A stretch of 46,978 nt of DNA from Calditrichota bacterium (GTDB taxonomy: Bacteria > Zhuqueibacterota > JdFR-76 > BMS3Abin05), in assembly GCA_013151735.1 (NCBI GenBank), contig JAADHR010000188.1, positions 1 through 46,978 on the forward strand, in the 5' to 3' direction. Of this stretch, positions 41,379-41,676 are shown one piece after another. The translations under genes were made by a program, and so were the position numbers. Each line of letters begins with the position of its first letter. Position 1 is the stretch's first letter. Below the pieces are notes generated by a model, which saw only the letters and a list, made by a program, of their open reading frames with translations, did no database searches and had not been told where the DNA came from.

Positions 41379-41407
41379 TTGCTTTTTGACAGAATTTTGC
41401 TTATCTT
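41379..41407 (+). promoter_or_regulatory. promoter of the his operon
   Basis: TTGCTT (41379-41384), 17 bp and TATCTT (41402-41407). It lies just beyond repeat copy B, with a predicted start near 41414, about 30 nt before the leader peptide ATG. A TTGACA at 41387 overlaps the spacer but has no -10 at the right distance. Confidence 0.55.
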
Positions 41408-41442
41408 TAGTTCAATTTAATTAAGGAATTTTGGAGAACGCT

Positions 41443-41520
41443 ATGTTTATTCGCAGGCCTGACATGCATTTACACCATCACCATCGGAACACCGTGGGCC
41501 GATTTGCGGGTAAACTTTAA
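41443..41520 (+). CDS. hisL: his operon leader peptide
   Basis: A 25-codon open frame with GGAG 6 nt before ATG 41443 and TAA at 41518-41520. Codons 9-14 read His-Leu-His-His-His-His (41467-41484), so five of six consecutive codons are for histidine, the hallmark of a his attenuator leader. The rest (start MFIRRPDM, end RNTVGRFAGKL) is not like the E. coli HisL apart from the His run. The peptide itself probably has no function; ribosome pausing on the His codons when charged tRNA-His is scarce is what matters. Confidence 0.9.
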   Translation: MFIRRPDMHLHHHHRNTVGRFAGKL

Positions 41521-41578
41521 ATAAAAATACAGGATTTTCAAATCGAGCCCACTTACCCAATCGGAAGTGGGCTTTTTT
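41452..41578 (+). promoter_or_regulatory. his transcription attenuator (antiterminator/terminator switch)
   Basis: Three competing helices can be traced. Antiterminator: GTGGGCCGATT (41494-41504, inside the leader frame) pairs with AATCGAGCCCAC (41541-41552), 11 pairs with one bulged A at 41546. Terminator: AGCCCACTT (41546-41554) pairs with AAGTGGGCT (41565-41573), then U-run. They share 41546-41552 and exclude each other. A weaker early helix, CGCAGGCC (41452-41459) with GGCC and TGCG (41497-41500, 41505-41508), can block the antiterminator. A ribosome paused on the His codons would cover the early segment and favour readthrough. Confidence 0.85.
41546..41578 (+). terminator. attenuator terminator upstream of hisZ
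   Basis: 9-bp stem AGCCCACTT (41546-41554) with AAGTGGGCT (41565-41573) and six U (41573-41578), 25 bp after the leader stop codon and about 100 bp before hisZ. Confidence 0.9.
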
Positions 41579-41610
41579 GTTTAGGTAAAAACAGGTCATT
41601 TTTAGGTGTT

Positions 41611-41630
41611 GTCTGACTACCTGGTCAGAC
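41611..41630. promoter_or_regulatory. GTCTGAC dyad between attenuator and hisZ
   Basis: GTCTGAC (41611-41617) and GTCAGAC (41624-41630) form a perfect 7-bp inverted repeat around TACCTG; GGTCAGACC within it is itself a 4-1-4 palindrome. It resembles operators of GntR-family regulators. No regulator gene is nearby. Confidence 0.45.
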
Positions 41631-41676
41631 CGTACCGAAAAATAGAAAAAACCAAAAAACTATTCTGGAGATTTTT

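Follow-up and report, generated by a model that had tools for sequence, protein, structure and literature searches.

Ribosome-mediated attenuation of histidine biosynthesis is a textbook mechanism, described mainly in better-studied bacteria. Attenuators are reportedly found also in Bacteroidetes/Chlorobi, according to the comparative study of attenuation by Vitreschak et al. (2004). The enteric his leader carries an extra hairpin, located after the pause hairpin and ahead of the terminator (PMC1183508). A histidine leader peptide preceding hisZ has been predicted in the Bacillus cereus group and in Clostridium difficile (PMC2965389, PMC9413887, PMC4833913). Two further papers describe short open reading frames (ORFs) in structured 5' UTRs, both in Flavobacterium psychrophilum, where they lie upstream of amino-acid operons and leader-peptide attenuation is suspected (PMC9723704), and in Bacteroides thetaiotaomicron (PMC7366714); no his attenuator is described in the passages on these frames. 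The locus considered here belongs to a window of 46,978 nt from a Calditrichota bacterium (contig JAADHR010000188.1), in which a his operon beginning with hisZ is preceded by a candidate histidine-specific, ribosome-mediated transcription attenuator. This attenuator is very probably genuine, because its parts were kept in a sister genome, and because of the phylum-wide recurrence of such leaders and the enrichment and pairing tests applied to them.

Between 41379 and 41676 on the + strand there followed, from 5' to 3', a promoter-like site, a GGAG motif, an ORF of 25 codons, a U-tailed hairpin and a spacer of 98 nt, and then hisZ. The promoter-like site (TTGCTT-N17-TATCTT, 41379–41407) was read from the sequence and was a weak sigma-70 match, agreeing with the consensus at 7 of 12 positions; a promoter scanner run on the window placed no flag there. 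The predicted leader peptide gene (41443–41520; MFIRRPDMHLHHHHRNTVGRFAGKL) ran from ATG to TAA, with the leader ribosome-binding site (GGAG, 41433–41436) 6 nt 5' of the ATG. Five of six consecutive codons specified histidine (CAT TTA CAC CAT CAC CAT, 41467–41484), the His codons starting at 41467, 41473, 41476, 41479 and 41482. Among ORFs of 45 aa or fewer on both strands of the window, this was the sole example with at least four His in six residues. The leader, its ribosome site and its five His in six codons had all been claimed in the initial annotation, and all could be read in the sequence.

The operon itself, also on the + strand, comprised hisZ (41677–42654; TIGR00443, 311 bits), which encodes the ATP phosphoribosyltransferase regulatory subunit, followed by a short-form hisG of 202 aa (42651–43259; TIGR00070), hisD (43238–44551; TIGR00069), hisC (44574–45653; TIGR01141), hisB, encoding IGP dehydratase (45842–46423; PF00475), and the 5' part of hisH (46420–46978), an open frame that ran off the contig and was named from its MIAIVNYGVGNL and GICLGHQ motifs. 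These matches agreed with the hisZ-first operon recognized previously, and the position of the attenuator suggests that it controls hisZ-G-D-C-B-H. A direct repeat of 51 nt (41063–41113 and 41310–41360; 92% identical, 247 nt apart) was observed in the gap between the upstream PFOR gene and the his promoter-like site, and the region also occurred as a partial, diverged copy (68%) at G000:C51:4097–4262.

Folding of the whole leader produced a 1:2 helix together with the terminator. Strand 1 (41445–41461, + strand) was joined to 41495–41515 by 17 pairs, forming a protector or pause helix that surrounded the His codons and masked strand 2; this helix was absent from the initial annotation and is added here. 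The 3:4 intrinsic terminator (41545–41578, + strand) consisted of a stem of 12 pairs (41545–41557 with 41563–41574) and a U6 tract (41573–41578), with an energy of about -17.5 kcal/mol; the region 41536–41585 folded at -19.6 (z = -4.1 against shuffles), and the U-tailed terminator seen earlier was in this way borne out. No helix was predicted at 41516–41538 in the full-leader fold. When the sequence through the end of the His run was removed, and the RNA was cut 5' of strand 4, the antiterminator was obtained instead (-20.0 kcal/mol, z = -2.6 against shuffles). Here, strand 2 (GUGGGCCGAUUUG, 41494–41506, + strand) was paired with strand 3 (CAAAUCG-A-GCCCAC, 41539–41552, + strand) across 41539–41545 and 41547–41552, leaving A41546 bulged; the duplex energy of strand 2 was -21.4, compared with -10.0 when shuffled (z = -5.0). 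The bulge and the seven bases common to antiterminator and terminator (41545, 41547–41552) were as described previously, although folding identified 13 pairs rather than 11. Since these coordinates overlap, strand 3 is common to two helices and strand 2 is contested by strands 1 and 3, and folding with and without the 5' part of the leader gave alternative structures accordingly. The three helices are mutually exclusive, and they supply what a His leader attenuator possesses: a 3:4 terminator ahead of the first structural gene, an antiterminator sharing its 5' arm, and a 1:2 helix. A further hairpin without a U-tract (GUCUGAC-UACCUG-GUCAGAC, 41613–41632) lay between the his terminator and hisZ.

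A mechanism may be proposed from these structures. RNA polymerase would initiate near 41414 and a ribosome would start on the 25-codon leader. By the textbook footprint, the 3' edge of a ribosome lies approximately 15 nt past the first base of its P site; if the A site held the last His codon (41482), the edge would fall at about 41494, where strand 2 begins. When charged tRNA-His is scarce, the ribosome would stall on the His codons (41467–41484) and break the 1:2 helix, leaving strand 2 just past its 3' edge and able to pair with strand 3; this pairing would block the terminator and allow hisZGDCBH to be transcribed. When histidine is plentiful, the ribosome would reach the stop codon at 41518 and its body would lie over the 3' part of strand 2 (the same footprint covers about 41502–41530), while the 5' part would re-pair with strand 1 behind the ribosome (41495–41500 being free to join 41456–41461). 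Strand 3 would then pair with strand 4, and transcription would stop at about 41578, producing a leader RNA of approximately 165 nt.

The nearest relative was bacterium BMS3Bbin03, in which HisZ was 65% identical and the leader (MPLSMRPRHFQDHHHHRNQVGRFMGKL) was a homologue of that in the window. The block around the promoter-like site (ACTTCTTGCTTTTTGA), the GGAG, the end of the leader (HHHHRNxVGRFxGKL), the terminator arms and helices 1:2, 2:3 and 3:4 were all kept; clustered His codons with a GGAG, both retained in this way, are what would be predicted for a leader attenuator specific for histidine. The inner 1:2 helix was GGCCUG/UGGGCC in the window and GGCCCA/UGGGCC in BMS3Bbin03, such that two G-U pairs were replaced by C-G and A-U. 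BMS3Bbin03 had a shorter inner 1:2 helix than the 17 pairs of the window; its duplex energy was not above chance (z = -0.5), compared with z = -2.7 in the window. The inner continuation of the antiterminator also differed, being CGAUUUG/CAAAUCG in the window and AUGGGAAAA/UUUUUUCAU in BMS3Bbin03. The spacer between terminator and hisZ was mostly missing from BMS3Bbin03, where approximately 14 nt separated the end of the U-tract from the hisZ start codon, and the tract adjoined a GGGAG ribosome site; the hairpin at 41613–41632 was missing as well. A search of 82 genomes for the full leader motif (HHHRNxVG with one mismatch) recovered the window and BMS3Bbin03 only. The remaining readable HHHRNxVG matches in these genomes were rejected, as they were not His leaders. 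Conservation of the His run and helices among relatives, the test set in the initial annotation, was thus observed: both were kept in BMS3Bbin03, and a layout of this kind recurred in the phylum.

After hisG and hisD had been located in genomes of the phylum, 63 hisG or hisZ upstream regions were readable. A His-run leader with a terminator was present in 38 of these, representing 15 of 23 families, although the genomes are related and such counts are not independent events. In many families the His-run micro-ORFs lay approximately 130–310 nt 5' of hisG, for example MYTHHPQYYHHHHHHTFMT, MYCHHHSHHHHSKILSGGG and MKQHHHHHHHHSATGSSHL, and the leaders shared little sequence besides the His run. At least four His in eight residues were found in 33 of the 63 regions, compared with a shuffled rate of 0.0008 (0.08%) and none on the opposite strand; for other residues, tested likewise, the coding strand gave no count above 10, and His alone was so enriched. 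A terminator followed 38 of 39 candidate leaders, its stem beginning 43–85 nt past the last His codon; the exception, in G044, was probably a chance ORF. Hairpins of -13 kcal/mol or better accompanied 36 of the 39 real leaders (8 of 156 shuffled), and those of -15 kcal/mol or better accompanied 30 (2 of 156 shuffled). Judged by sequence, the His-leader arrangement is common across the whole phylum.

In families f12 and f16, where hisZ is present, the hisZ upstream region was read in most of the genomes and contained no His run; other genes precede hisG in these operons, so the hisG-upstream read falls inside the operon. These loci (L006–L016) are hisZ-type his operons lacking a His-run leader, while the hisG-long operons of the phylum mostly have one. 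In the HisD tree, the pair belonging to f1, the family of the window, grouped with f3 (86/82), and both were placed, with loose support, in a larger group shared with Firmicutes-like and f12/f16 hisZ operons; the tree did not discriminate between these two affinities for the f1 operon.

For the 38 leaders, the sequence that follows the His run was evaluated for pairing with the 5' arm of the terminator. Duplex energies beat those of shuffles (p = 4e-8), and 42% of leaders fell below 0.05 individually. Pairing weakened when strand 2 was swapped between genomes, a modest effect when uncentred (p = 0.04); once centred for generally sticky segments, the arm from the same genome fitted better (2 of 20,000 permutations). 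Measured from the last His codon, the best strand 2 lay at 18.9 ± 5.7 nt (SD of 14.5 among shuffles), while the stop codon ranged from 15 to 60 nt; the window, with a strand 2 offset of 9 nt, was close to the lower limit. This near-constant distance agrees with the prediction from stalling at His codons. By simple duplex energy, a convincing strand 2 was missing in approximately one quarter to one third of leaders (e.g., G037, G051, G052, G059 and G076), and the signal for the 1:2 helix was weak over the phylum (p = 0.018).

Other explanations were weighed against these results. The hairpin might belong to the upstream gene as its terminator, or be a constitutive 5' UTR hairpin, with the His-rich frame arising by chance; a U-tailed hairpin is certainly present, and the leader frame is short. 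However, the PFOR gene, which ends at 41011, has its own GC-rich hairpin and T-tract at approximately 41026–41059 (the scanner placing this stem on the - strand only), and His-run leaders recurred before hisG far beyond chance, nearly always followed by such hairpins. This explanation is refuted by the His run and terminator kept in relatives, and retains a negligible probability. The choice between the folds might be made not by the ribosome but by a T-box, a riboswitch or an RNA-binding protein, as his genes are under T-box control in Firmicutes (PMC9413887). Yet there was no Rfam match at the gathering threshold, with the T-box model included, and the conserved features follow the reading frame, namely the His codons and their constrained distance to strand 2; such a regulator is considered extremely unlikely.

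It is equally improbable that the leader acts mainly on translation, through coupling or by freeing the ribosome site of hisZ. The U-tract of BMS3Bbin03 adjoins the GGGAG of hisZ, so the hairpin could also affect the ribosome site there, but the terminator of the window ends approximately 100 nt before hisZ, and hairpins carried long U-tracts throughout the phylum. A histidine leader-peptide attenuator, operated by the ribosome and acting on transcription termination, is therefore the preferred interpretation.

Leaders of other specificities were also present. The trpE gene of the window's own genome was preceded by a Trp leader (MKNPVKKSSGQTKWWWRIWYPSVHHTIL) and a strong U-tailed terminator (L265 1194–1280, G000:C141); a second terminator-like hairpin was observed further on from this leader. 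By tests looser than that for His, 23 of 30 genomes had a Trp-rich leader ahead of trpE (5 on the opposite strand), and 10 of 29 loci with ilvB-like (acetolactate synthase) genes (L294–L323) had a leader rich in branched-chain residues (2 on the opposite strand). These branched-chain leaders came mostly from f5, f18 and f19, and the ilvB-upstream scan found none in the genome of the window itself. Leader-peptide attenuation might tentatively be regarded as the ancestral default of the phylum for His, Trp and, in part, branched-chain operons, with f1 keeping or regaining it as the operon changed from a long HisG to HisZ and a short HisG; this scenario is rather doubtful. The literature searched contained no earlier report of His leaders spread through the phylum alongside Trp leaders and some branched-chain ones.

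The window had been thought to display enteric-type his attenuation. Ribosome-mediated His attenuation was upheld, while the enteric layout was not, given the absence of the extra hairpin and of an Rfam His_leader match (none at the gathering threshold, and none listed at E up to 10). An Rfam scan of the window and 20 hisZ loci gave no matches; at E up to 10, the window produced weak, sub-threshold, terminator-like matches only. To our knowledge, the leader peptide is unrelated to enteric HisL outside the His run. Because Rfam was silent and little sequence was shared beyond the His run, finding such leaders requires a search for codon runs with competing hairpins. These leaders extend predicted ribosome-mediated control of his genes to a whole uncultured phylum, and the 38 of them provide a natural set for asking how far ribosome size fixes the distance between His run and antiterminator.

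Like the enteric his attenuator, the window has a run of His codons, a pause hairpin, an antiterminator, a U-tailed terminator and a cognate operon; unlike it, there is no extra hairpin and the operon begins with hisZ, not hisG. In the absence of that hairpin the layout is a simpler, trp-like one of four segments, with 1:2, 2:3 and 3:4 helices formed from overlapping strands and a single antiterminator choice; it departs from the trp type in having His codons in place of Trp, and in placing strand 2 within the leader frame. On this comparison of parts, the leader is predicted to work like a classical attenuator and is not a homologue of enteric hisL. The initial annotation was correct that a His leader precedes a hisZ-first operon, but the combination is not new, having been predicted earlier in C. 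difficile and the B. cereus group. In those bacteria, as here, a His-rich leader, terminator and antiterminator are predicted by comparison before a his operon containing hisZ; the window differs in belonging to another phylum, and the resemblance described is one of layout.
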